From Lichenibacterium dinghuense (GTDB taxonomy: Bacteria; Pseudomonadota; Alphaproteobacteria; Rhizobiales; Beijerinckiaceae), in NCBI RefSeq assembly GCF_021730615.1, contig NZ_JAJLMN010000001.1:4041501-4105500 (forward strand): a DNA stretch of 64,000 nucleotides, read 5' to 3'. The notes beneath the pieces are model-generated. The model worked only from the letters and a program-made list of their open reading frames with translations. It was not told the origin of the DNA and ran no database searches. Positions within the stretch are counted from its first letter, which is position 1. The number at the start of each line of letters is the position of its first letter. A program made the position numbers and the translations under genes. Shown here piece by piece: positions 1 to 13,616 of this stretch.

Positions 1-240
1 GGCGACGAACTGGCGCGAACGGCCCTGTACGAGGCCGCTAACGCGCTGCTCGTGCGCAGCCAGAAATGGTCCAGCCTGCGGGCCTGGGGCATGACGATCG
101 CCAAGCATCGCGGCATGGCGCGGGCGCGCGTTGCCGTAGCCCGAAAGCTGGCCGTGGTCCTGCACCGGATGTGGAGCGACGGTACCGACTTTCGGTTCGG
201 CACCGGGCCGACCACCGCGCCCGCCACCGTAGTTGCCTGA
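1..240 (+). CDS. IS110-family transposase, C-terminal fragment (5' end outside window)
   Basis: The frame is open from the first base and ends at a TGA at 238-240, giving 79 residues. The stretch with ELARTALYEAANALL, then KWSSLRAWGMTIAKHRG and ARVAVARKLAVVLHRMW, is the typical end of the transposase_20 domain of IS110/IS1111-type enzymes. These use a DEDD-type catalytic core, which would lie upstream of the window. The IS border could not be placed. The 170 bp after the stop hold no other gene and probably contain the element's end, close to the tail of the neighbouring licD-like gene. Confidence 0.8.
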   Translation, partial: GDELARTALYEAANALLVRSQKWSSLRAWGMTIAKHRGMARARVAVARKLAVVLHRMWSDGTDFRFGTGPTTAPATVVA

Positions 241-408
241 CGCTCGGAGGACACCGCGGGCCGCCACCCGCACGAGCTTCACCTGAAAGGGTGATGTGGA
301 CCGTTCCCGTGGGGACGATCGGTAAGGCCACCTCGTTGAGAGTCTTGAGCCCGCGGCGACGTCGCGAGGTCGTGAAACAGATCGAGGGACCGAGCCGGAC
401 TGACCCCA

Positions 409-1740
409 TCATGCGGCGGCGAAACGCCGACCGCGAAGAGAAGCGTGTGACCCGCGGGAACGGGACAAAAAACCTGACAGGAGCGCTTGACCTCCAGAGC
501 CCCAATCAGAGAAGGCTCTCAGGTCAGGCGGCTGCAGTCTGAGGGTGCCGAGATCCGCCGCACGTCGGTCGGTCGATGCGTACCGTAACAGGTCTACTCT
601 GACCTCGTCATCGATCAATCGGGGGAAGAACAGCAGGGGCGGTGACGCGTAAGACCTGCGCCTTTCTCCCGCCTTGATGGATTTCACGAGGTTCGGCCAT
701 TCGTCATCGAGCCTGGAAAAGCCGAACCTCGCCACGACGTACCGCGCCGGGTCGACGACGATGATCGACAGGACGAAGTCCTGGTCGCGGTCCGGGGTAT
801 CGACATTGGGCAGGACACCGAAGGTTCGCGCCAGTTTCAGGTCGTGGTCATGGATGAAATGCGCTCCCTGCCGGCACGTTTCGCCCAGATCGTGCCGGGC
901 AACCTCTGGCGGGTCAGACGTGATGCAGAAGAGTCGAAGAGAACGGGCGGGCGCAGTGCCACGAAGCGCGATGATCTTGCTCAAGGTCGCGCGGCTCACC
1001 GGATGCGTGAAAGACGCGAAGAAGCCGAGGATAACGAAGTCGCCGGCGAGGCCATCCATGTCCCATGTCTCGCCATCCGTCGTCTTGAACCGGGCATCGG
1101 GCGCCCGCTTGCCGACGCCCACCGGCGTGTAGGGAGGCCAGGCAGGGAGCGGCCTTCCCCAAAACATGTAACCCTTTCCCGTCGGGTAGGAATGGTCATT
1201 GACGGGATAGGCTCCGACGACGGTCGCGCACGGCGCGTCGTCGTCGGAGAAGTCCGGCCGGCGGATGCGCCAGTCACCGTAGGCGAGGTCCAGCACCTCC
1301 TCCGCCCTGCTCGGGATCGACACCGGAACGCCCAAGAAGCTGGCCGGTCGGCAGTTCTGAAACAAGGCTTTCGGCATCTTAAAATGGTGCAGGCCGCCGA
1401 GCTTGCGGAATGAATACAGCGTGTAATCGTCCCCGTCCGCGTAGAACACCCAGATGTCGATGCCGAGGCGCGTGTCCCTGGGAAATGTCACCGTCATCTG
1501 ATAGGGCGTCCGCTTCTCCAACGCCAATCCGATGTCGTTCAACCTGCGCTCAAAGAGCGTGATCTTGTCGATGTCGTGATCGAAGATGTTGAGGTCGATG
1601 TCGTGGTCGTGCGGGATGATGCCGCCATCCCTGACATGGCCGAGCAGAGAGCCCCACATCAGCACGGACCTGATTCCGGCATCGTCCAATGCCCCGCAGA
1701 TCAGCGACAGGAGTTTGGCGCCTTCGACGTGTACCCGCAT
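409..1740 (-). CDS. LicD-family transferase fused to a C-terminal redoxin-fold domain
   Basis: This is a 443-residue protein. Residues about 1-190 form a LicD/fukutin-type nucleotidyltransferase-fold domain: VLMWGSLLGHVRDGGIIPHDHDIDLNIF carries the GSxLGxxR and DxDxD elements that bind metal and the activated donor. LicD proteins move phosphocholine or similar phospho-substituents onto glycans. Residues about 205-345 resemble a peroxiredoxin/AhpC-TSA fold (APDARFKTTDGETWDMDGL, then FVILGFFAS), but the place of the peroxidatic cysteine holds no Cys. I chose ATG 1740, which has AAGGA upstream; the longer start at 1848 would overlap the next gene by 61 bases. The last roughly 40 residues are low-complexity and may come from the adjacent IS110 end. 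It lies 47 bp downstream of a LicC-like gene and is probably co-transcribed with it. Confidence 0.75.
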   Translation of the reverse strand: MRVHVEGAKLLSLICGALDDAGIRSVLMWGSLLGHVRDGGIIPHDHDIDLNIFDHDIDKITLFERRLNDIGLALEKRTPYQMTVTFPRDTRLGIDIWVFYADGDDYTLYSFRKLGGLHHFKMPKALFQNCRPASFLGVPVSIPSRAEEVLDLAYGDWRIRRPDFSDDDAPCATVVGAYPVNDHSYPTGKGYMFWGRPLPAWPPYTPVGVGKRAPDARFKTTDGETWDMDGLAGDFVILGFFASFTHPVSRATLSKIIALRGTAPARSLRLFCITSDPPEVARHDLGETCRQGAHFIHDHDLKLARTFGVLPNVDTPDRDQDFVLSIIVVDPARYVVARFGFSRLDDEWPNLVKSIKAGERRRSYASPPLLFFPRLIDDEVRVDLLRYASTDRRAADLGTLRLQPPDLRAFSDWGSGGQALLSGFLSRSRGSHASLRGRRFAAA

Positions 1741-1787
1741 GGCCCTATCGCATCCTTGCTCACGGATCGTTCGATGCCCGCTGCGGC

Positions 1788-2462
1788 CTACGCCGACCAG
1801 TCTCGCCGGGCGTCTTCCAGTTCGTCCAACGTGTCCACCTCGTTCCACATGAAGTCACACTCGCGGCAGAACAGGCCATCCTTCAACGAGAGCATCGGAT
1901 CCCAGTACTCTACGCCTTCCATGCCCATCATCTCTTCAACAGCGTCTTGGGACAGCTTGTAGATGCCGACGAGTTCTCTGTCGGCCGTCAGATCGTACCC
2001 CCACCGTTCGACGCGCCCGTTCTCATCCGTCTGGACGTAGAACGGTTTCGCGTTCCTGCGAGGCGTCACACAGACGGCGTTCGGCTTTGCGTGGTCGATC
2101 AGGGCATCGACGATGCGGTGATCGTAGATCAGGTCGCTCTCGATCAGCAGTGCGCCGGACGTCAGCTCCGGATACGCGCAGTGGAAGGAATGGATGGAGG
2201 GGCGACGATTGTCTTCGTTCCAGATCAGCGATGTCGTGAGCGGGGGGCGATCTCTCGCCAGCCAGTCGCGTATTTCGGCACCGTGGTTTCCGACGACGAT
2301 CGTCGCCGCCTTGAAGCCGACCCTCGCGAGAGCTTCGAGCGAGTGCATGAGTAGCGGTTTTTCGGCCACCTCGGCCAGACATTTCGGTCGATCACCGCCG
2401 AAGCGGGTGCTTCTGCCGGCCGCAAGGATGACGGGTCTGTGTGTCTGGGTCATCACTCGCAT
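1788..2462 (-). CDS. LicC/MobA-like sugar-phosphate or choline-phosphate nucleotidyltransferase
   Basis: The protein has 224 residues and opens with a Rossmann-like nucleotidyltransferase signature, VILAAGRSTRFGGDRPKCLAEV (the GxGxRxG-like loop and PK motif for NTP binding). LIESDLIYDH supplies the acidic metal ligand, and EVDTLDELEDA near the end is common in LicC-type CTP:phosphocholine cytidylyltransferases. Its length fits that family. Standing directly upstream of a LicD-like gene, it likely makes the activated donor that LicD transfers. The actual substituent, choline or another alcohol phosphate, cannot be read from sequence. ATG at 2462 is used; a second ATG lies at 2453. Confidence 0.72.
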   Translation of the reverse strand: MRVMTQTHRPVILAAGRSTRFGGDRPKCLAEVAEKPLLMHSLEALARVGFKAATIVVGNHGAEIRDWLARDRPPLTTSLIWNEDNRRPSIHSFHCAYPELTSGALLIESDLIYDHRIVDALIDHAKPNAVCVTPRRNAKPFYVQTDENGRVERWGYDLTADRELVGIYKLSQDAVEEMMGMEGVEYWDPMLSLKDGLFCRECDFMWNEVDTLDELEDARRDWSA

Positions 2463-2578
2463 CTAATCGAAAATGCCGACTCGGGTGAAGATGTGGAGCC
2501 CGTCCATGCCACCTCGTCATGGCGCTCCTGTCCGGCAGGAGCCATGTGCGCCGATGGCCGACCAAACGTTAAGCGCTA

Positions 2579-3370
2579 TCAGATCCGGTCGTCGGATCCC
2601 TGGGCCGGCCGCTGCCCGGCGAAGCGGTCCGCGAAGCGCCCCTTGAACGGCACGGTGCCGACGTGGGTGATCTCGTGGCTGACGCTCGCCCAGATCTCGC
2701 CGCCGCAGTCCTCGGTCCAGCGCCGGCAGAAGGACAGGTCCTCGCCGAGCATCCGGTTGTCGGGCAGCACCATGGGGCGGAACGGCTGCACGAGCCGGCC
2801 CGACAGCCCGTCCGCCAGCAGCGGCTCGAAACGCTCCGCCACGAGGCCGGGCAGCTCCGCCATCCGCTCGATCACCGCGCGCTGGATCAGCATCACGCCC
2901 GATGGGCTGCCCTTCACCCGCGTGAAGCCGTTCACGATCTCGATGCGCCCGTCCGGGCCGGTCGCGAAGTCCTGGTAATAGTCGAGCGCCAGCGACTGCA
3001 TCTTCTGCCAGGATTCGGCCTGCCGCGCCGTGCGCCACAGCCGCTCGAACGATATGTCGCGCCGCGGGCCCACCACGGACACGACGGGCTTGTCGAAATC
3101 CAGCATGGCGAACAGCGCGTCCGCCGGAAAGCCCTGGTCCGCGTCGACGAACAGGAGGTGCGTGAAGCGCGACATCTCCAGCACGTAACTCGCCATGACG
3201 TTGCGGGCGAGGTCGATGCTGGCGTAGGAGTTCGCCGACAGCGTCAGTTCGATCTCGGGCCGGCGCAGGCGCGCCTGCTTCTGCAGCCCGAACACGCTGT
3301 TGAGATAGTCCACCGTCACCTTGCGGTCGTGTGTCGGGGTGGCGATCAGGATGTGGGCCGGGGCCGGCAT
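2579..3370 (-). CDS. GT-A-fold glycosyltransferase-like protein
   Basis: A 263-residue cytosolic protein. It begins HILIATPTHDRKVTVDYLNS and carries LLFVDADQGFPADAL, a DxD-type motif expected to hold the metal and nucleotide sugar. VKGSPSGVMLIQR and GEDLSFCRRWTEDCGG resemble the acceptor-side G and ED elements of GT-A enzymes. The class is clear but donor and acceptor are not. It lies 116 bp upstream of the LicC-like gene on the same strand and is divergent from the redoxin-hydroxylase gene. It could be the glycan-chain counterpart of the LicCD modification. Confidence 0.65.
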   Translation of the reverse strand: MPAPAHILIATPTHDRKVTVDYLNSVFGLQKQARLRRPEIELTLSANSYASIDLARNVMASYVLEMSRFTHLLFVDADQGFPADALFAMLDFDKPVVSVVGPRRDISFERLWRTARQAESWQKMQSLALDYYQDFATGPDGRIEIVNGFTRVKGSPSGVMLIQRAVIERMAELPGLVAERFEPLLADGLSGRLVQPFRPMVLPDNRMLGEDLSFCRRWTEDCGGEIWASVSHEITHVGTVPFKGRFADRFAGQRPAQGSDDRI

Positions 3371-3515
3371 GTCGGGCGTCTCGGGAGGGATCGCTCGTGG
3401 CTTAGCCCGAACCTCGGCGCCGCTGCAACTTCGGACGGGGCTGCGCGTTACCTACCCTTGCAAAAATGAGAGCACGCTTATAGACCCGGCCCGTGACGAA
3501 AGCCGGAGCTCGACG

Positions 3516-4655
3516 ATGTCCGACGACCAGTTGATCTACGCCAATCTCGCCGCCGGCGACCCGGTGCCGTGGATCAAGCAGCAGTGCCAGGGCATCCACT
3601 TCGCGCCCGACGCCATGGCGGGCCGCTACCTCGTCTTCTGCTTCTACGGCTCCGCGGCCGACGAGCGGGCCCGCGCGGCCATCGGCGCCGTGGGCCGCCG
3701 CCGGGACCGCTTCGACGACGCGCGCGCGAGCTTCTTCGGCGTGTCCACGGACCCCGAGGACCAGACCCTCGGCCGCGTCAAGGACGTGATGCCGGGCATC
3801 CGCTTCATGTGGGACTTCGACCGTTCGGTGAGCCGCGCGCTCGGCGCCGCGCCGAAGAACCGCGGCGACGCCGTCGGCCACCGGGCCTTCTGGATGATCG
3901 TCGATCCGTCGTTCCACGTCCTCGCCACCGTGCCCTTCGCGGCGGACGGTTCGGACGTGGACCGGATGTTCGAAATCCTCGATTGCCAGCCCCAACCGTC
4001 GCGCTTCGCCGGCTTCGAGGTGCCCGCGCCCGTGCTGGTGCTGCCGAACGTCTTCGACGCCGGCCTGTGCCGCCACCTGATCGGCCTCTACGACGCCGAC
4101 GGCGGCGGCGAATCCGGGGTGATGCGCAACAACGTCGGCGTGCTCGACCGCACCTTCAAGAGCCGCAAGGACTACTCGCTCGAAGACCCGAAGCTCGTCG
4201 GCCACGTGCAGGGTCTCATCGCCCGCCGTGTCCTGCCGGAGATCGAGAAGCTGTTCTTCATGAAGGTCACCCGCATGGAGCGCTACATGGTCGGGTGCTA
4301 TTCCGCGGAGGACGGCGGCCATTTCCGCCCCCACCGCGACAACAATTCCGAGATCACGGCGCACCGGCGCTTCGCGGTCTCGATCAACCTCAACGCCGAT
4401 TTCGAGGGCGGCGAGGTCAGCTTCCCGGAATACAACCCGCGCGGCATCAAGGCGCCCCCGGGCTGGGCCGTGGTGTTCCCCTGCGCGGCCCTCCACATGG
4501 TGTCGCGCGTGACGAGCGGGCGCCGCTACGCCTTCCTGCCCTTCGTCTACGACGAGGCGGGCGCCGCCATCCGCCAAGCCTACCTCCGCTCGCTCCAGCC
4601 CGCTGCCGCCCCCGCGGGCGGCGCCGGCCTCGGCGGAGAGGCCCTGGTCGCCTGA
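3516..4655 (+). CDS. Redoxin-fold domain fused to 2OG-Fe(II) oxygenase (prolyl-4-hydroxylase type)
   Basis: 379 residues. Residues about 8-160 form a peroxiredoxin-like domain (GDPVPWIKQQ, YLVFCFYGSA, FFGVSTDPED, FWMIVDPSFHVLA) lacking a cysteine at the usual peroxidatic site. Residues about 165-360 are a 2-oxoglutarate/Fe(II) dioxygenase: HFRPHRDNN provides the HxD iron ligands, ALHMVSRV the distal His, and TSGRRYAFLPF the 2OG-binding Arg. P4Hc enzymes hydroxylate protein or small-molecule targets. ATG 3516 has GGAG seven bases upstream and removes 65 non-conserved residues from the longer frame. It is divergent from the glycosyltransferase. The same kind of domain is fused to LicD close by, which suggests a shared partner or carrier. 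Confidence 0.8.
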   Translation: MSDDQLIYANLAAGDPVPWIKQQCQGIHFAPDAMAGRYLVFCFYGSAADERARAAIGAVGRRRDRFDDARASFFGVSTDPEDQTLGRVKDVMPGIRFMWDFDRSVSRALGAAPKNRGDAVGHRAFWMIVDPSFHVLATVPFAADGSDVDRMFEILDCQPQPSRFAGFEVPAPVLVLPNVFDAGLCRHLIGLYDADGGGESGVMRNNVGVLDRTFKSRKDYSLEDPKLVGHVQGLIARRVLPEIEKLFFMKVTRMERYMVGCYSAEDGGHFRPHRDNNSEITAHRRFAVSINLNADFEGGEVSFPEYNPRGIKAPPGWAVVFPCAALHMVSRVTSGRRYAFLPFVYDEAGAAIRQAYLRSLQPAAAPAGGAGLGGEALVA

Positions 4656-4704
4656 TGGGCTTGCACGGTCGGGTCGGCTGCAGCGGCGTCGATCCTTGAC
4701 GTCG

Positions 4705-6135
4705 ATGCGGCTACGGGGTGGCGCATCGACGTCGCGGCATCCGGCGGGGGCTGGGTGGCCGTCTCCCGCTCTGCTCTACCTGCTCCTGGCATTGCCGGTC
4801 GTCCTTTTCCAGGTGTTCGGCACGCCCCCCTTCCAGATGCCGGATGAACCGCGCCACTTCATGCGGGCCGTGCAGATCGCCGGCGGGGGCCTGCTCGGGC
4901 ATCGCTACGACGATACGTTCTCGGGCGGTGACCTCGAGATCGCGGCGCAGGACGTCGCCGTCGCCTTCCGGCCGCTCGCGCTCGACACCGAGAAGCGCCT
5001 CGATCTGGCCGTCGTCGCCCACATCGCGACCCTGCGATGGGGCATGACGGGCAAGACGCCAGCCTTATTCGAGAACACCTCGATCTACCCTCCGACGCTT
5101 TACGCGCCGGCGTCGCTCGCCATCCGCCTCGGAAAGGCTCTCGACCTCACGATCCTGTCCACATACTACCTGGCCCGCCTCGCGATGGGGCTGAGCGGGC
5201 TGCTGCTCGCCACCCTGGCGATTCGTACCTGCGCGATCGGTCGGAATGCGCTCTTCGTGTTCCTGTCCTTTCCCTTCGTGCTCAGCGCCTTCGGGTCGAT
5301 CTCGCAGGATGGGCTCGCCATCTCGGCGGGCGCATTGGCGGTGGCGCTGTGCTCGCGATACCTCGCCGAGGATCGGGCGATGCCCGTGGCCATTCGCGCC
5401 GGTGTCGCTTTGCTGTTGGGCGCCGTCGTCGGGGCCCGCTTGCCCTTGGCTCCTCTCCTCGCCCTCCTCGTAATCCCGACGTCGTCGTCCCGACCCGGGC
5501 TGCGCCCGGCCGACCTCGCGGCCTCCGCGCTCTGCTTGGTCCCGGTGTCGCTCAGCCTGCTGTGCGCCGCGGTCGCCAAGATCCCGTTCAGGGCACAGGA
5601 TGGCGTGGCGCCGGCCGATCAGGTCGCGTTCGTGCTGCGTCACCCGGCCGGCGTCGTCCAGACCCTTTGGACGACGATGGCGGAACACGGCGGCGAGTTC
5701 GCGCGCGAGATGGTCAGCGTTCTCGGCTGGTGGAGCGGCATGGGACCGTCCTTCTTCTATTGGTGGATCGCTGGCTGCCTCGCAGCGGCCTTGACGATCG
5801 ATATGTGCATGCCGGCGCCCGCGCGCTCGGATCGGAGCCGGCTGCTCGCCCTCGGTGCCGCGATCGTCGCGACCCTCGGAGTATTCGCCACCTTCTACGT
5901 GGCCTGGACACCCGTCGGAGGGGCGCAGATCGAGGGCGTGCAGGGCCGCTACTTCGTCGTCCCGGCCCTGGCCTCGCTGCTCGCCCTGCCACGCTTCTCG
6001 CCGGCGGCCGCTTATGTCGCGACGCTGTGGCCCTCACAGGTTCTGCTCGTTCTGGGACGGGCTATCTGCCTCGGCGTCGGCTGCCTCGATCTTTGGGCTG
6101 TTCCGACAACGATCCTGGCGCGGTACTATCAATGA
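4705..6135 (+). CDS. DUF2142-family polytopic membrane protein
   Basis: 476 residues with about ten hydrophobic segments. The family signature is near the start: FQVFGTPPFQMPDEPRHFMRAVQIA, and later GVQGRYFVVPALASLLALP. DUF2142 proteins sit in the inner membrane and are found with polysaccharide genes; they look like GT-C-type glycosyltransferases or related transporters, with the MPDEPxHF segment taking the place of an acidic catalytic loop. ATG 4705 is preferred over a TTG three codons upstream. It lies 49 bp after the hydroxylase gene and probably belongs to the same unit. Confidence 0.75.
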   Translation: MRLRGGASTSRHPAGAGWPSPALLYLLLALPVVLFQVFGTPPFQMPDEPRHFMRAVQIAGGGLLGHRYDDTFSGGDLEIAAQDVAVAFRPLALDTEKRLDLAVVAHIATLRWGMTGKTPALFENTSIYPPTLYAPASLAIRLGKALDLTILSTYYLARLAMGLSGLLLATLAIRTCAIGRNALFVFLSFPFVLSAFGSISQDGLAISAGALAVALCSRYLAEDRAMPVAIRAGVALLLGAVVGARLPLAPLLALLVIPTSSSRPGLRPADLAASALCLVPVSLSLLCAAVAKIPFRAQDGVAPADQVAFVLRHPAGVVQTLWTTMAEHGGEFAREMVSVLGWWSGMGPSFFYWWIAGCLAAALTIDMCMPAPARSDRSRLLALGAAIVATLGVFATFYVAWTPVGGAQIEGVQGRYFVVPALASLLALPRFSPAAAYVATLWPSQVLLVLGRAICLGVGCLDLWAVPTTILARYYQ

Positions 6136-6349: not shown

Positions 6350-8551
6350 ATGTCGCTGAGCACCGTGGCGGAGCCGCAGACCCAAACAGCCCAGGCTCAG
6401 CCGGCATCGCTTCAGCAGCCGCGCGTGGTCGACACGGGTCTTCCCGCTCTCGCCCTGATCGCCAACTTCCACCGCCTCGGCTGCGACGTCGCGCAGGTCC
6501 GGCACGAGATGGGGCTGGGCGACAAGGTTTGCGACTCGCTCGATGTCGTCAGGGCCAGCAAGCTTGTGAAGCTCAAGGCGCGCCGCCTTCAGAAGCAGTC
6601 GACGAAGGCGTTGGAGAAGGCGCCTCTGCCAGCTCTGGTCGAGATGAAGGACGGGCAGTTCCTCATCTACGGTCGGCGCCACGAAGACGGGAAGATGCGT
6701 CTCGTCAACGCCGTGACGCGCGAGGTGCGCAACCTCACCGCGGATGAACTCGCCGCGGAATGGACCGGCACGCTCCTCCTGTTCGCCCGCAGGGTGGCCC
6801 TGAAGGCAGAAGCCGGCCATTTCTCAATCGCCTGGTTCCTGCCCTTCCTTTGGCGCTATCGCCGGCCGCTGGCCAGCGTGGTCACCGCCTCGCTGTTCAT
6901 CCAGCTCTGCACGCTGGCGACGCCCCTGCTGTTCCAGATCGTCATCGACAAGGTGCTCACCCACAAGGGCATGTCGACTCTGTACATGGTGATCCTGGGC
7001 ATGGTGCTGGTCGGCCTGTTCCAGGCGCTGCTGACCTGGCTGCGCACCTACATGCTCACCCACACGACGAGCCGCATCGACGTCGAACTCGGCGCCAAGC
7101 TGTTCGACCACATGGTGCGGTTGCCTCTCGCCTATTTCGAGGCCCGTGCTACGGGCCAGACCGTGGCCCGCATGCGCGAGATCGAGCAGGTCCGCAACTT
7201 CCTCACCGGCTCCGCCCTGCTGACCGGCCTCGACGTGATTTTCTCCGTCGTGCTGGTCGCCGTGATGGTGGCCTACTCGCCATTCCTGTCGGTGATCGCG
7301 CTGCTGTCGATCCCGGTCTACGTCGTAATCGGCATGACGATGCGTCCGCTTCTCCGCGCGCGCATGATGGACAAGTTCAACAAAAACGCGCTCTCGACGC
7401 AGTTCCTCGTCGAATCGGTCGTCGGCATCCAGACCGTCAAGGCCATGGCGATCGAGCCGGTGTTGCGCTCGGAATGGGAGGACAGGCTCGCCGCCTACGT
7501 GGGCTCGTCCTTCGACGCCGTGTCGATCGCCAACGTGGGCCAGAACGCGTTCCAATACGTGTCCAAGCTGTCGTCGGCGGCCGTGCTGTTCTTCGGCGCC
7601 CAGGCGGTGATCGACGGCGACCTCACGGTCGGCGGGCTCATCGCGTTCAACATGATCTTCGGGCAGGTGACCGGACCGATCCTGCGGATCTCCCAGCTCT
7701 GGCAGGACTTCCAACAGGTGCAGATCTCGGTCGAGCGCCTCGGCGACATCATGAACAACGCCCCCGAGTCGACCTCCATGGCCCAGGCGCACCTGCCGCC
7801 GGCCAAGGGCGACGTGCAGATCCGCGGCATGACGTTCCGCTACGAGGCCGGCGGACGCGAGATCCTGAAAAACATCAACCTTGCAATCCCGGCTGGGCAG
7901 GTGATCGGCATCGTCGGCCCGTCGGGCTCCGGCAAGTCGACCCTCACCAAGCTCGTGCAGCGGCTTTATACGCCCGAGCGCGGGCAGATCCTGGTCGACG
8001 GCATCGACGTCGGGCAGGTCGACCCAGCCTGGCTGCGCCGTCAGGTCGGCGTGGTGCTGCAGGAGAACCTGCTGTTCAACAAGACCGTGCACGAGAACAT
8101 CGCGCTGGTGAACCCCGCCATGTCGCGCGCCCAGGTCATCGCCATGGCGCGGCTGTCGGGCGCCGACGAGTTCATCAACCGCCTGCCGCTCGGCTACGAC
8201 ACGATGATCGTGGAGCGCGGCGCCAACCTGTCGGGTGGCCAGCGCCAGCGCCTCGCCATCGCGCGCGCCCTGGCCTCCAATCCGCGCATCCTGATCCTCG
8301 ACGAGGCGACCTCGGCGCTCGACTACGAGAGCGAGCGCATCATCCAGGAGAATATGCGCCACATCGTGCACGGCCGCACGGTGATCATAATCGCGCACCG
8401 CTTAGCCGCCGTCCGCGACTGCCACCGGATCATCGCCGTGCAGGACGGCAACATCGTCGAGGACGGGTCACACCACGAGCTTCTCGCCCTGCCGACGAGC
8501 CTTTACGGGCGCCTGTGGCGCATCCAAGCTGGAGAAGCGGAAGCCGCATGA
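6350..8551 (+). CDS. Type I secretion ABC transporter, HlyB-like (C39-like domain, TMD, NBD)
   Basis: 733 residues. Residues about 25-150 form a C39-peptidase-like domain without evident catalytic Cys function, used by RTX exporters to hold the substrate. Residues about 160-460 carry the six-helix ABC exporter region. The nucleotide-binding domain follows: GPSGSGKSTL (Walker A), LSGGQRQRLAIARAL (signature), ILILDEATSALD (Walker B) and the IAHRL H-loop. It powers one-step export of unfolded proteins through an HlyD/TolC channel. The stop overlaps the downstream hlyD-like ATG by ATGA. No RTX substrate and no TolC is present in the window. The 214 bp upstream hold no gene. Confidence 0.92.
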   Translation: MSLSTVAEPQTQTAQAQPASLQQPRVVDTGLPALALIANFHRLGCDVAQVRHEMGLGDKVCDSLDVVRASKLVKLKARRLQKQSTKALEKAPLPALVEMKDGQFLIYGRRHEDGKMRLVNAVTREVRNLTADELAAEWTGTLLLFARRVALKAEAGHFSIAWFLPFLWRYRRPLASVVTASLFIQLCTLATPLLFQIVIDKVLTHKGMSTLYMVILGMVLVGLFQALLTWLRTYMLTHTTSRIDVELGAKLFDHMVRLPLAYFEARATGQTVARMREIEQVRNFLTGSALLTGLDVIFSVVLVAVMVAYSPFLSVIALLSIPVYVVIGMTMRPLLRARMMDKFNKNALSTQFLVESVVGIQTVKAMAIEPVLRSEWEDRLAAYVGSSFDAVSIANVGQNAFQYVSKLSSAAVLFFGAQAVIDGDLTVGGLIAFNMIFGQVTGPILRISQLWQDFQQVQISVERLGDIMNNAPESTSMAQAHLPPAKGDVQIRGMTFRYEAGGREILKNINLAIPAGQVIGIVGPSGSGKSTLTKLVQRLYTPERGQILVDGIDVGQVDPAWLRRQVGVVLQENLLFNKTVHENIALVNPAMSRAQVIAMARLSGADEFINRLPLGYDTMIVERGANLSGGQRQRLAIARALASNPRILILDEATSALDYESERIIQENMRHIVHGRTVIIIAHRLAAVRDCHRIIAVQDGNIVEDGSHHELLALPTSLYGRLWRIQAGEAEAA

Positions 8552-10047
8552 GCACTCAAGCCCAGCTTCCCGCCGTCCGACCCTCGCGTGTGCCCGCCAT
8601 CGTCGCGCGGGTGCCCGCTGCCTTCAAAGCCTCGACGGCGCCCAAGCCGTCGACGGCCTACACTGAGTTCCTGCCGGCCCACCTCGAGATCCTGGAGACG
8701 CCCGCCTCACCCAAGATGTCGTTCATGCTCTGGACGATCTGCGGGATGATGACGGCCGCGATCGCCTGGAGCTCCTTCGCCAAGATCGACATCTACGCGG
8801 AAGCGCAGGGGCGCATCCAGCCGAGCGGCCGCTCCAAGGTGATCCAGCCGCTGGATGTGGGGCGCGTGTCCGAGATCGCGGTGCAGAACGGATCCATCGT
8901 CAAGGCGGGTGAACTCCTCGTCCAGCTCGACGCGACGCAGAGCGAGGCCGACCGGGCGAGTGCCGCCGCCGACCTGCAGTCGCTCCACGCCGAGATCGCC
9001 CGGCGCACGACCGAGATCGTCGACGTCCAGGCGGGCGTGACCAACCCCACCATCATCTATCCGCCCGACGTGTCGGACTCCTATCGCAGGCGCGACGACA
9101 GCGTTTTCCAGGCGGAGATGAGCCAGTACCAGGCGCAGGTGGACGGCCTCCAGGCCCAGCTCGCCGAGAAGACCGCCCGCAACAAGCACTTGGCGGACAC
9201 GATCGCGGCCCGCGAGAAGGTCATCGACTCGATGACCCAGCGCCTCGACATGAAGCAGACCTTGGAGGCTCGCCAGGCGGGCACCAAGGCGGCGGTGATC
9301 GACGCCAGCCAGACGCTCGAGAACGAGCAGCGCAATCTCGCCGACGACCACGGGCAGGTGATGGAGAACGACGCCGCTGCGGTGTCGCTGCGCCGCCGGC
9401 TCGACCAGGCCAAGCGCGACTTCCTGGCCACGCAGAACCAGAAGCTCAACGACGCGCAGCGCAAGCTGGACGATGTCCAGCAGAGCCTCGTCAAGGCGGC
9501 AGCGAAGGTTCAGCAGGCGCGCATCGTCGCGCCGATCGACGGCACTGTGCAGCAACTCGCAGTCACCACGGTCGGCCAAGTCGTCACGTCGGGCCAGCCC
9601 CTCATGGTGCTGGTGCCATCGACGAAGTCTCTCGAAGTGATGGCGCTGGTGCAGAACCAGGACATCGGCTTCGTCAAGGACCAGCAGGACGTCGTGCTCA
9701 AGGTCGACGCCTTCCCGTTCAGCAAATACGGGACGCTGAAGGGCAAGGTGACGCGCATCTCCAACGAGGCGGTCGACTCCCAGGAGGCCACGGCTTCGTC
9801 CGACGCGAGCACGCTGGCGCGCCCGTTGAACAGCCAAGCCGTGTCTGGCAGCCAGAAGGTTCAGAACCTCGTCTACCCGGTCACGATCCAGCTCGAACAG
9901 ACGTCGATCAACGCCGACGGCAAGGACGTGCCGCTGATGCCGGGCATGATGGTCACGGCCGAGATCCAGACCGGCAGCCGCCGTGTCATCCAGTACCTGC
10001 TGGCGCCGATCTGGGAAGCGACTTCGCAGGCGGCGCACGAGCGCTGA
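8548..10047 (+). CDS. HlyD-family type I secretion membrane fusion protein
   Basis: 499 residues. A single membrane helix lies at about 57-77 (MLWTICGMMTAAIAWSSF). GRIQPSGRSKVIQPLDVGRVSEI is the lipoyl-like half-motif, a long coiled coil covers about 115-330, and IVAPIDGTVQQLAVTTVGQVV is the second lipoyl half. A beta-barrel region and a C-terminal MPGMMVTAEIQTGSRRVIQYLL, characteristic of the family, follow. It bridges the ABC exporter and an outer-membrane TolC-type channel. The ATG overlaps the hlyB-like stop (ATGA), so the two are translationally coupled. Confidence 0.92.
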   Translation: MSTQAQLPAVRPSRVPAIVARVPAAFKASTAPKPSTAYTEFLPAHLEILETPASPKMSFMLWTICGMMTAAIAWSSFAKIDIYAEAQGRIQPSGRSKVIQPLDVGRVSEIAVQNGSIVKAGELLVQLDATQSEADRASAAADLQSLHAEIARRTTEIVDVQAGVTNPTIIYPPDVSDSYRRRDDSVFQAEMSQYQAQVDGLQAQLAEKTARNKHLADTIAAREKVIDSMTQRLDMKQTLEARQAGTKAAVIDASQTLENEQRNLADDHGQVMENDAAAVSLRRRLDQAKRDFLATQNQKLNDAQRKLDDVQQSLVKAAAKVQQARIVAPIDGTVQQLAVTTVGQVVTSGQPLMVLVPSTKSLEVMALVQNQDIGFVKDQQDVVLKVDAFPFSKYGTLKGKVTRISNEAVDSQEATASSDASTLARPLNSQAVSGSQKVQNLVYPVTIQLEQTSINADGKDVPLMPGMMVTAEIQTGSRRVIQYLLAPIWEATSQAAHER

Positions 10048-10152: not shown

Positions 10153-11574
10153 GTGCGATCAGAGGACGACGGCCTGCAGCCAGGCCGCGCGAAGGCGGGA
10201 CTCGGCCGCGAAGCGGGCGAAGGTCGCACGGCCGTGCTGGTCACCGGCATGCACCGCAACGGCACCTCGGCCCTCGCGCGGACCCTGTCCCTGCTCGGCG
10301 CGGCCCTGCCGCGCGACCTCGTGCCCCCCAACGACGGCAACCCCCGCGGCCATTGGGAGCCGCAGGGAATGGTCGACCTCAACGACCGCATGCTGGCCGA
10401 CGCCGGCTCCGATCTCTACAGCGTCCGTGACTTTGCTCCCGGCTGGTTCGGCTCCGCGGCGGCCTCCGCCTTCACCGACGAGGCTGCGCGGCTGATCGCG
10501 GCCTCCTTTGCCGACGAGCGCCTCGTCGTCCTCAAGGATCCGCGGACGGCCCTCCTCGCGCCCGTCTGGAACGAGGCTCTGGCGCGTCAGGGCTTCCGGG
10601 TCGTCCACGTCCTCCCGCTGCGCCATCCGGCCGACGTCGCGGAGTCGCTGCGCCGCCGTCACCTGAAGACCATTTCCTACGACGCCTGGGCGAAGCCGCG
10701 CGGCGAGGCGGTCTGGCTCCGCTACACGCTGGCGGCCCTGCGCGGCTCCCGCGGGCACAGCCGCGCCTTCCTGCGCTACGGCGACCTCGTGGCCGACTGG
10801 CGCCGTGAGGTCGCGCGCGTGGGGGCGGAACTCGGCATCCGCTGGCCGGGGCTCGGCACGGGCGCCCAGGCCGAGGTGGACGCCTTCCTGCACGGCAACG
10901 ACCGCGCCGACGGCCGCCACCCTCCGGTCATCGTGGGAGGCGGCGACCTCGGCCGCCTCGACCTCGCCGGGCTCGCGGCGGCTTGCCACGACGCGCTCGC
11001 GACCTCCGCCGGCGATCCGGCCCGGATCGACGCCGCCGAGGCCGCCTTCGGCGCAGCCTTCGACGGCCGGATCGCCGGCGGCGGCGATCTCATCGCGGCT
11101 TTCGAGGACCTCTACGCGCTGGTCTGGCGCTTCTACGAGGAGGGCGGGGCGCTGCGGCAGAGCCTCGACCTCGCTGCGGCGGCGGAGGCGCGCCTGCGCG
11201 AGGCGTCGCAGCGCTCCTGGGCGGCCCTCACGGTGGCCAACAACGACAAACTCCGCCTCCAGCTCGACGCCGGCTCGCGCGACCGGCAACTGGCGAGCCT
11301 CGCGGCCGAACTGGCGCGCTCGAACGACCTCGCGGGAGGCGCCGCGGCCCGGGCTGCCGAGCTCGAGGCCCAGAACGCGCTTCTCGCCGAGGCGCTGGCG
11401 GGGATCGAGGGCGCGATGGACGCCCGCCTGAGCGAGCACCTCGTCGCAGCCGACGCGGCCCGCCGCGGACACGGCGAGGCGGAGGCGCGCCTGGCGGCCC
11501 TGCATGGCTCGACCTCCTGGCGGCTCACCGCGCCGCTGCGCGCCCTGTCCCGCGCCGTCAGGGGCCGGGCGTGA
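10153..11574 (+). CDS. Sulfotransferase-like protein with C-terminal coiled coil
   Basis: 473 residues, GTG start with GGGAGGA upstream. VLVTGMHRNGTSALARTLSLLGA near the N-terminus is the 5'-PSB-type loop that binds PAPS in sulfotransferases; LKDPRTALLAPVW and LPLRHPADVAESLRRR are the usual 3'-phosphate-side elements. Residues about 325-445 form an Ala/Glu/Arg-rich coiled coil ending in STSWRLTAPLRALSR, a tail often seen on glycan-synthesis proteins. It probably sulfates a surface glycan or acts as a PAPS-fold scaffold; the substrate is unknown. Its stop overlaps the GTG of the next glycosyltransferase. Confidence 0.75.
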   Translation: MRSEDDGLQPGRAKAGLGREAGEGRTAVLVTGMHRNGTSALARTLSLLGAALPRDLVPPNDGNPRGHWEPQGMVDLNDRMLADAGSDLYSVRDFAPGWFGSAAASAFTDEAARLIAASFADERLVVLKDPRTALLAPVWNEALARQGFRVVHVLPLRHPADVAESLRRRHLKTISYDAWAKPRGEAVWLRYTLAALRGSRGHSRAFLRYGDLVADWRREVARVGAELGIRWPGLGTGAQAEVDAFLHGNDRADGRHPPVIVGGGDLGRLDLAGLAAACHDALATSAGDPARIDAAEAAFGAAFDGRIAGGGDLIAAFEDLYALVWRFYEEGGALRQSLDLAAAAEARLREASQRSWAALTVANNDKLRLQLDAGSRDRQLASLAAELARSNDLAGGAAARAAELEAQNALLAEALAGIEGAMDARLSEHLVAADAARRGHGEAEARLAALHGSTSWRLTAPLRALSRAVRGRA

Positions 11575-13616
11575 GCGCGCCGCGGGCCGGGCGGCGTCTG
11601 CGCATCTGCTTCGTGGCCGGCGAGCTTCTGGGCGCCCACAAGAACGGTGGCATCGGCACTGCGACCACCCATGCCGCGCTGCTCCTGGCCCGGGCCGGCC
11701 ACGACGTCTCGGTCGTCTACACCGGCTCGCCCTGGATCGACTATGCCCATCCTTGGGTGCGGCGCCTGCAGGCCGCAGGCGTCGCGCTGACCCACCTCGA
11801 TGCGCGCGCGGGCGAGATCTACCCGGTCTGGATGCGTGAAACCTGCGTCATCCACGACTACCTGCGCGGGCTGGAACACGACTTGATCCTGTTCCAGGAC
11901 TGGGAGGGGCCGGCTTTCGCCAGCGTGGTCGCCAAGCGCGCGGCTTCGGCCTTCGCCGGCACCACCCTCGCGGTGGTCGCGCACGGGCCGACCGCTTGGC
12001 TGCTCGACGCCAACCGGGCGCTGGCGCGCGATCAGCGCACGCTCGCCCACCTCGAAATGGAGCGCGTCGCCTTCGAGGCGGCGGACGCCGTCCTGTGCCC
12101 GTCGCGCCACATGCTGGACTGGCTCCGGGCCAGCGACATCCGGGTCGCCGACGACGCCGAGGCCGTGCCGCTCTATCTGTGGTCTGACGAGGAGCCGTTG
12201 CCGTCGCGGCGCGGCCGGGCACTGGACCGGGTCGACAGGATCGCCTTCTTCGGGCGGCTCGAGACCCGCAAGGGCGTAGACCTGTTCCTGGACGCCGTCC
12301 TGTCCGACGCGCTCGCGACCCGCGACTTCGAGGTGATCTTCGTCGGCAAGCCCGCGTCGCACACGCCGGACACGGTCCGGGCCGCCGTCGCGCTGCGCCG
12401 CCCGTCGCTGCTGCCGCGCCTGTCCTTCCAGCCCGACCTCGACACCGACGCCGCCCAGGCTTTCCTGTGCGACGAAGGCTGCCTCGCCGTGATCCCGTCG
12501 CTCATCGACAACGCCCCCTGCGTGATCTCCGAATGTCTGCGCCGCGGGATTCCCTTCCTGTCGACCTCGACGGGCGGGATCCCCGAGTTGGTCGCCGAGG
12601 ACGATCGGGGCCGCGTCCTGGTCGAGCCCGAGGCGTCAGCGCTCGCGGCCCGGCTCGCCGATGCGCTGGAGCGGCCCTTCGCCCCGGCGCGCCCGGCCCA
12701 CGCGGAGCGTGAGACGGGCGCGCGGTGGACCGCCTGGTGTTCGCGCGTCGCCGGGAAGGCCCGTGCGGCCGCGGCGCCGTTCCGCTCCGGAGCCGCTCGC
12801 GAGCGGTCGCCGGACGGGCGGATCGCCGTGGTGGTGACCCATCACGAGCGGCCCGCGCTGGTCGAGCAGACGCTCGAGTCGCTGGCGGCACAGACCAGGA
12901 CCGATTTCGACCTCGTGCTGGTCGACGACGGCAGCCGGTCTGCGGCGGCCCTGGCGGCTCTGGCGGCATTGGAGCGCCGCCGCTGGCCGTTCGCGCTCAC
13001 GGTGCTGCGCGGGCCGAACCGCTACCTCGGCGCAGCCCGCAATGCCGGGCTGAGGGCCAGCGCGGCGGACCGGTTCGTCTTCATGGATGACGACAACATC
13101 GCTTTTCCGAACCTGGTCGAGCGGCTGGACGAGGCCATGTCGCGCAGCGGGGCCGACATCGTGACCTGTCAGATGTCGATCTTCCGAGACCCGTCCGGCG
13201 AGCCCGACCCGGCCGAACTCGCTTCCGCCGAGCGGTGGGGCTTCCTCGGCGGCTCGGGCGCGAGCGGGGTGGAGCTCGGGTTGTCGGTGAACTGCTTCGG
13301 CGACGCCACGGGGATCTATCGCCGCGAGGTCTTCGACCGCGTGGGCTTCTTCCACGAGCGGCGCGGGGTCGGCCACGAGGACTGGCAACTCCACGCGAGG
13401 GCAGTCCTGGCCGGCCTGACGGTCCTGTCGCTCCCCGAGCCGCTCTACTGGTATCGGCGGGTGGCGACCGGCATGCTGCTGTCGACCGACGCCTATGCCA
13501 ACAACCGCGTGGTCTGGGACGCCTACGCCGAAGCGTTGCCCTCGGCGCTCCGCCGCTTCGTCGACCTGTCCGTGCGGAACCACTTCACAGGCGATCCAGG
13601 GGTGCTCGGCGGGTAG
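11571..13616 (+). CDS. Bifunctional glycosyltransferase: GT4 domain plus GT2 domain
   Basis: 681 residues. Residues about 8-390 are a GT-B, GT4-type domain: RICFVAGELLGAHKNGGIGTAT, then RIAFFGRLETRKGVDLFLDA and a CLAVIPSLIDNAPCVISECL segment with the E of the E-x7-E pattern. Residues about 415-680 are a GT2 domain: IAVVVTHHERPALVEQTLES, LVLVDDGS, and FMDDDNIAFPN as the DxD motif, then GHEDWQLHARA. The GTG start overlaps the sulfotransferase stop (GTGA), a coupled pair. Two linked transferases in one chain suggest consecutive sugar additions. Sugar identity is not readable. Confidence 0.85.
   Translation: MSAPRAGRRLRICFVAGELLGAHKNGGIGTATTHAALLLARAGHDVSVVYTGSPWIDYAHPWVRRLQAAGVALTHLDARAGEIYPVWMRETCVIHDYLRGLEHDLILFQDWEGPAFASVVAKRAASAFAGTTLAVVAHGPTAWLLDANRALARDQRTLAHLEMERVAFEAADAVLCPSRHMLDWLRASDIRVADDAEAVPLYLWSDEEPLPSRRGRALDRVDRIAFFGRLETRKGVDLFLDAVLSDALATRDFEVIFVGKPASHTPDTVRAAVALRRPSLLPRLSFQPDLDTDAAQAFLCDEGCLAVIPSLIDNAPCVISECLRRGIPFLSTSTGGIPELVAEDDRGRVLVEPEASALAARLADALERPFAPARPAHAERETGARWTAWCSRVAGKARAAAAPFRSGAARERSPDGRIAVVVTHHERPALVEQTLESLAAQTRTDFDLVLVDDGSRSAAALAALAALERRRWPFALTVLRGPNRYLGAARNAGLRASAADRFVFMDDDNIAFPNLVERLDEAMSRSGADIVTCQMSIFRDPSGEPDPAELASAERWGFLGGSGASGVELGLSVNCFGDATGIYRREVFDRVGFFHERRGVGHEDWQLHARAVLAGLTVLSLPEPLYWYRRVATGMLLSTDAYANNRVVWDAYAEALPSALRRFVDLSVRNHFTGDPGVLGG

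Follow-up and report, generated by a model that had tools for sequence, protein, structure and literature searches.

The locus and its two redoxin-bearing enzymes

Near the left edge of a 64,000-nucleotide stretch of the Lichenibacterium dinghuense genome (contig NZ_JAJLMN010000001.1, positions 4,041,501 to 4,105,500; hereafter the window, to which all coordinates without a prefix refer), a gene for a LicD-type transferase and a gene for a prolyl-4-hydroxylase (P4H)-type oxygenase each encode, besides the enzymatic domain, a redoxin domain that resembles peroxiredoxins but has no peroxidatic Cys. This report is concerned with how two such different enzymes came to carry this domain and with what it might do there. 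The features on which the argument depends are the following:

1156..1740, minus strand: LicD domain, residues 1–195 counted from ATG 1740 (PF04991, 4.4e-9; motif GSLLGHVRDGGIIPHDHDIDL intact)
661..1146, minus strand: Cys-less redoxin of the LicD gene, residues 199–360 (redoxin-of-P4H profile, Foldseek, alignment)
523..660, minus strand: start of a P4H domain, forming the native LicD C-terminus (SPPLLFFPRLIDDEVRVDLLRY...; full-length family profile), cut by the end of an IS110-family element
1..522, plus strand: right part of that IS110-family element (1441 bp in total, extending left of the window; other genomic copies stop at the base that corresponds to 522)
3516..4025, plus strand: Cys-less redoxin of the redoxin–P4H protein (Pfam, alignment; predicted structure with pLDDT 86.5)
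4026..4652, plus strand: P4H-type 2-oxoglutarate (2OG)-Fe(II) dioxygenase domain (His273, Asp275, His327 and Arg337 intact; Foldseek)

The LicD open reading frame (ORF; 409–1848, minus strand), for which ATG 1740 is a likelier start than GTG 1848, matches the Pfam family LicD at 37.2 bits against a cut-off of 22.6, and also AhpC-TSA at 5.3e-6, barely above the cut-off. The GSLLG...DxDxD motif of the LicD domain can be read directly in the sequence, and the domain is predicted to transfer phosphocholine or another phospho-substituent. In the P4H ORF (3321–4655, plus strand), which most likely begins at ATG 3516, matching the starts of its relatives, a 2OG-FeII_Oxy_3 domain (2.9e-10) lies downstream of an AhpC-TSA-like domain, whose own match (1.4e-5) falls 0.5 bit below the Pfam cut-off. 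The best Foldseek matches of the P4H model are PHD2/EGLN1 and the P4H of Pseudomonas putida (4iw3, a P4H–EF-Tu complex), and its fold and active-site residues predict a prolyl hydroxylase activity. PHD2/EGLN1 and the P. putida enzyme (PPHD) have the same dioxygenase fold and the same Fe/2OG residues as the window P4H, but in their structures the redoxin domain is missing.

The two genes belong to one cluster, as a first-pass annotation of this DNA had held; it had placed them three genes apart, whereas the interval contains two genes, one for a nucleoside triphosphate (NTP) transferase (1788–2462) and one for a putative glycosyltransferase (2579–3370).

Redoxin domains without the peroxidatic Cys

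Alignment with an active-type 1-Cys peroxiredoxin from a relative (FTPVCTTE) places Ser249 of LicD (994–996; FTHPVS) and Ala52 of the window P4H (3669–3671) in the peroxidatic column, and the PxxxTxxC motif of peroxiredoxin enzymes is absent from both proteins. That both enzymes bear a peroxiredoxin-like domain minus this Cys, the starting observation of the first-pass annotation, is thus borne out by Pfam and alignment. The fold is as expected, too: the predicted LicD redoxin domain finds Tpx/Bcp peroxiredoxins in the PDB (best E 8.6e-10, Foldseek), so that a fold other than thioredoxin-like, which would have undermined the idea, is not what is seen, and the redoxin half of the redoxin–P4H profile matches PDB peroxiredoxins by sequence. 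Nor has a functional Cys moved elsewhere in the domain, as far as a residue common to both proteins is concerned: no alternative Cys is shared, and none of the redoxin-part columns in which Cys occurs among 94 members of the P4H family described below (in 13, 74 and 26 of them) is Cys in LicD.

Among known proteins, Bcp/PrxQ and Tpx (AhpC-TSA) have the same fold and family profile, whereas the window redoxins are without PxxxTxxC, its Cys included. The peroxiredoxin-like P-DUDES domain of SRPX/CCDC80 likewise lacks the classic peroxidatic Cys; it often has a shifted Cys pair instead (PMC3091736), of which none is common to the window redoxins. Neither 'hydroxylase' nor 'oxygenase' is mentioned in the P-DUDES paper (PMC3091736).

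A family of redoxin–P4H proteins

In a redoxin–P4H protein that is widespread in the Alphaproteobacteria, the N-terminal half is as a rule a Cys-less redoxin. The window P4H represents this family over its full length, its N-terminal redoxin being followed directly by the P4H-type double-stranded β-helix (~380 residues in all). At least 566 relatives were confirmed in a scan of GTDB species; relatives of the P4H half occur in 89 of the 385 genomes sampled from the class, and the L. dinghuense genome itself has three redoxin–P4H copies. Across 94 members, the peroxidatic column holds Gly (44), Ala (26), Ser (14) or Val (7) and Cys in just three, leaving 91 without it, and of the remaining PxxxTxxC residues Pro is kept in one member and Thr in two. 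The iron and 2OG residues, by comparison, are nearly invariant (HxD and Arg in 94/94, distal His in 93/94). Mean pairwise identity is 45% in the redoxin half versus 66% in the P4H half, the redoxin being the lower in every pair; even so, the redoxin half can be recognised in members that have diverged far. An independent loss of the catalytic residue in two unrelated enzymes is not supported, the domain being the constant N-terminal half of one P4H family.

A redox role might nonetheless survive, either through another Cys – that of the strand motif YLVLC – or with the redoxin as a peroxide-sensing or electron-delivering partner of the P4H. The strand position is Cys in 74 of the 94 members and the peroxidatic column in three, the active-site Arg is retained in 68, and an extracytoplasmic function (ECF) sigma factor follows the gene in 10 loci, mostly of Rhodobacteraceae, which could mean stress control. 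Yet the strand position is occupied by Gly in LicD, the strand Cys replaces a Phe adjoining the PxxxTxxC site, whose Thr and Pro are lost in nearly all members, and the redoxin part has no second widely conserved Cys column; on balance, we judge a retained redox function unlikely.

The window P4H does not differ from alphaproteobacterial redoxin–2OG-Fe(II) oxygenase proteins: it is 74% identical to a Lichenifustis protein and 52.8% identical, over 92%, to one encoded on a Rhizobium leguminosarum plasmid. Two plasmid-borne relatives are annotated merely as '2OG-Fe(II) oxygenase', and in the literature no paper describing the redoxin–P4H family was found. Across much of the Alphaproteobacteria the family keeps a dead peroxiredoxin in front of a PHD2-like hydroxylase, and it is the more interesting object here.

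When the 385 genomes were searched with a profile of the redoxin alone, strong matches were confined to frames of redoxin–P4H type, with two exceptions: the LicD gene and a frame at locus L215. The latter, a Cys-less redoxin frame of 266 residues that has no P4H and adjoins a methyltransferase-like ORF, is the sole free-standing candidate and is probably a remnant. Weak matches of 150–280 residues resemble ordinary peroxiredoxins by length and score. Phage 2OG oxygenases were considered as relatives and rejected, their match being restricted to the dioxygenase core. One genome has a tandem pair of redoxin–P4H genes (L217), the first of which is split into two frames.

The LicD gene as a broken fusion

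The LicD protein ends in foreign sequence. Its last 37 codons and stop (409–522) are supplied by the IS110-family insertion sequence (IS; transposase domains Transposase_20 and DEDD_Tnp_IS110), copies of which elsewhere in the genome are 1441 bp long and 99.9% identical, and its C-terminal ~40 residues are matched at 16 other places in the genome. The native tail that precedes them (SPPLLFFPRLIDDEVRVDLLRY...) aligns with the family P4H start, APVLVLPNVFD..LCRHLI; the alignment to the full-length family profile extends across it, and its score was not equalled once in 300 shuffles. LicD is thus not a P4H-free protein: the last of its native codons encode the opening of a P4H domain, as far as the first strand, and stop at 523. 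The rest of that domain is found to the left of the window, beyond a second mobile element:

L028:17238-17642, minus strand: remaining P4H half of the LicD fusion (family P4H profile, E 5e-22)
L028:17643-18585: IS5-family element, upstream of the window and before the P4H remnant (12-bp perfect inverted repeats, CTGACCCAAAAG)

The ORF of the remnant (L028:17235-17717) lies on the LicD strand and matches 2OG-FeII_Oxy_3 at 7.4e-5, below the Pfam cut-off. By coordinate arithmetic, its native part opens with a whole codon and continues the reading phase in which the native LicD codons end. Because the native tail is P4H-like and an in-phase remnant lies beyond the IS pair, the LicD gene is read as a former LicD–redoxin–P4H gene, split by the IS5-family and IS110-family elements, which leave LicD–redoxin with a short IS-encoded tail. 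LicD carries a redoxin, then, because it was fused to the whole redoxin–P4H module, and the two Cys-less redoxins of the window are one module and one fusion rather than two recruitments. In the remnant, HxD has become Q-R-Y (H to Q, D to Y), while the distal His is retained; since the IS copies are near-identical and the remnant is free of stops and frameshifts, we think that the HxD was lost before the gene was broken.

The left remnant might instead be an unrelated fragment that happens to lie beside the IS pair, with the LicD–redoxin protein ending soon after its redoxin. Relative to the family the junction is about 20 residues short, the remnant has no HxD and no intact fusion is known, all of which would suit such a coincidence; against it, the two pieces complement each other within a single domain and share strand and codon phase, and the LicD tail itself scores as a P4H start. 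We therefore hold it to be improbable.

The first-pass annotation favoured another explanation, namely that the Cys-less redoxin is a general recognition or docking domain, recruited independently by LicD and P4H for a common carrier or target. The presence of both proteins in one cluster, the absence of the Cys from both redoxins and a redoxin tree that does not nest LicD within the P4H proteins speak for this. What makes it very unlikely is the P4H start that follows the LicD redoxin, with the remaining P4H beyond the IS pair, together with the survey of 385 genomes, in which strong redoxin-profile matches are found with no other enzyme partner, the remnant-like L215 excepted. The earlier proposal that the redoxin has been given another role is supported by the family-wide loss of the peroxidase motif, but its reuse for docking by many enzymes is contradicted by the profile survey and the P4H remnant.

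The derivation of the LicD gene from a redoxin–P4H fusion has to be set against some findings that weaken it. The LicD redoxin scores 66 bits (E ~1e-18) against a profile of the redoxin domains of redoxin–P4H proteins, but ordinary peroxiredoxins reach 47 bits on the same profile; the LicD redoxin is divergent (~20–25% identity), and the redoxin tree is too weak to assign it to the P4H redoxins with any confidence. Moreover, no intact LicD–redoxin–P4H fusion was found elsewhere, so that the original gene is inferred from its two pieces. The LicD–redoxin fusion was not found again in plasmids, 100 relatives, or 385 class, 318 family and 299 phylum genomes, nor in the genome and viral contigs searched with close-relative patterns. 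Long-frame LicD matches in the family (480–619 residues) were examined as possible fusions and discarded: their LicD is at the C-terminal end, and they have no redoxin or P4H.

The GSLLG...HDHDID motif and the adjacent NTP transferase are shared with LicC/LicD pairs, which transfer NDP-activated phospho-substituents to glycans, but here LicD is fused to the redoxin–P4H module. From redoxin–2OG-Fe(II) oxygenase proteins, conversely, the LicD gene differs by the LicD domain in front, by a P4H without HxD and by being split by ISs. LH3/PLOD, the procollagen lysyl hydroxylase–glycosyltransferase, to which the window P4H has a weak profile match, likewise combines a glycan-type transferase with a 2OG hydroxylase in one chain; the transferase domains of LH3/PLOD and the LicD fusion are unrelated, however, and the hydroxylase part of the fusion is without its iron ligands. 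The gene may serve as a caution, in that an insertion sequence, here one lying right where the window begins, can mask the common origin of seemingly 'independent' domains.

The mobile repeat was at one point taken for a single 3.65-kb element, wrongly; it consists of pairs of IS110-family copies that flank IS5-like elements. Such inverted pairs often flank IS5-like elements of ~870 bp, which differ by locus (L029:10543-14290, L030:3416-7164 and L031:2269-6017). Each IS110-family copy in these pairs begins at an IS5-type end, and that at 1–522 of the window is one such copy. Another redoxin–P4H copy of the same genome (L029:9392-10498; C1:1049391-1050494) has an IS110–IS5-like–IS110 composite from L029:10543, ~45 bp past its stop.

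A proposed non-catalytic partner of the hydroxylase

The redoxin would act not as a peroxidase but as a structural or peptide-holding partner that stabilises the hydroxylase, by analogy with protein disulfide isomerase (PDI) in collagen P4H. Older work reported that collagen P4H assembles with PDI even when the catalytic cysteines of the latter are missing. In that α2β2 enzyme, which likewise combines a P4H catalytic domain with a thioredoxin-fold partner, PDI is the β subunit and is bound to the catalytic domain; in a 2022 structure, however, inter-subunit disulfides are formed via the PDI catalytic cysteines (PMC9676403). The window redoxin–P4H differs in being a single chain, in having a fold of peroxiredoxin rather than PDI type and in having no CGHC, for which reason there is no inter-subunit disulfide of the collagen P4H kind. 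It brings into one chain the old question of what makes prolyl hydroxylases associate with partners of thioredoxin fold.

Gene neighbourhood and possible targets

The remaining genes around the two enzymes are these:

1788..2462, minus strand: NTP transferase, LicC-like, the expected maker of the NDP-linked donor for LicD (NTP_transf_3, 3.4e-19)
2579..3370, minus strand: putative glycosyltransferase (by inspection only; no Pfam family above cut-off)
4696..6135, plus strand: DUF2142 membrane protein (Pfam, 2.1e-49)
6350..8551, plus strand: type I secretion ABC transporter HlyB (TIGR01846, 4.5e-276), syntenic with P4H in lichen-associated relatives
8548..10047, plus strand: HlyD-type adaptor of type I secretion, start approximate (HlyD_3, 5e-20)
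10153..11574, plus strand: sulfotransferase-like protein, syntenic (Sulfotransfer_3, 0.0015, below cut-off)
11574..13616, plus strand: two-domain glycosyltransferase, GT4 + GT2, syntenic, start approximate
L028:13805-15385, left of the window: small RTX protein, ORF of 526 residues (HemolysinCabind, 1.4e-33)

A paralogue of the putative glycosyltransferase (GT) lies at L028:12725-13546. The order in this genome is GT4–GT4–...–RTX–GT4–[LicD block]–P4H–DUF2142–HlyB–HlyD–sulfotransferase–GT, the genes of the LicD block (P4H remnant, IS5, IS110, LicD, NTP transferase and putative GT) being on the opposite strand. Lichenifustis flavocetrariae and Lichenibacterium ramalinae have RTX–GT–P4H–HlyB–HlyD–sulfotransferase–GT, and L. 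minor has P4H–HlyB–HlyD–sulfotransferase–GT. Because the order is conserved in relatives without it, the LicD block appears as a lineage-specific insertion. The small RTX protein, a candidate for the exported and modified protein, is found beside the genes for P4H and type I secretion in several genomes of lichen-associated bacteria (also at L070 and L073).

The intact window P4H would hydroxylate prolyl residues of a peptide in this secretion/glycan cluster, and its substrate would most plausibly be the RTX protein exported by the type I route, though a housekeeping protein like EF-Tu could also be meant. A housekeeping target of this kind, as for the P. putida enzyme, would make the position in the cluster incidental. 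The structural likeness to 4iw3 and the non-glycan neighbours of the gene in Microvirga, where they are of housekeeping type, and in Rhodobacteraceae are in keeping with it, whereas the three paralogues of the genome, the intact copy and the broken LicD fusion beside the window copy in one glycan/secretion cluster, and the P4H–HlyB adjacency conserved in relatives are not; we regard it as somewhat unlikely, but as a serious contender. Against the RTX reading, the P4H neighbourhood outside the lichen clade is not secretion-related, which confines the link to RTX export to the lichen-associated clade. Taken together – a redoxin–P4H module with a broken LicD fusion beside it, the redoxin as a non-catalytic hydroxylase partner and an RTX-type target – the account seems reasonably probable to us, and it would point to a possible connection, in bacteria associated with lichens, between type I secretion, the tailoring of glycans and the hydroxylation of prolyl residues.

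As for the ancestral fusion, its dead redoxin–P4H part may have directed LicD phospho-transfer to the target of the window P4H. That the fusion was a targeting device, in which the dead redoxin–P4H kept its surface for recognising peptides and brought LicD to (hydroxy)prolines of an exported RTX protein for phospho-transfer, is a decidedly speculative idea to which we give little credence; if true, bacteria would here have used a prolyl-hydroxylase scaffold to build a phospho-modification.

Elsewhere in the family, an ECF sigma factor directly follows redoxin–P4H in 10 loci, mostly of Rhodobacteraceae, and in 10 overlapping loci a second conserved gene after redoxin–P4H is anti-sigma-factor-like (ECF/anti-sigma loci: L088, L093, L097, L101, L106, L112, L123, L125, L140 and L147). 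These neighbours suggest a stress-regulated expression of redoxin–P4H.

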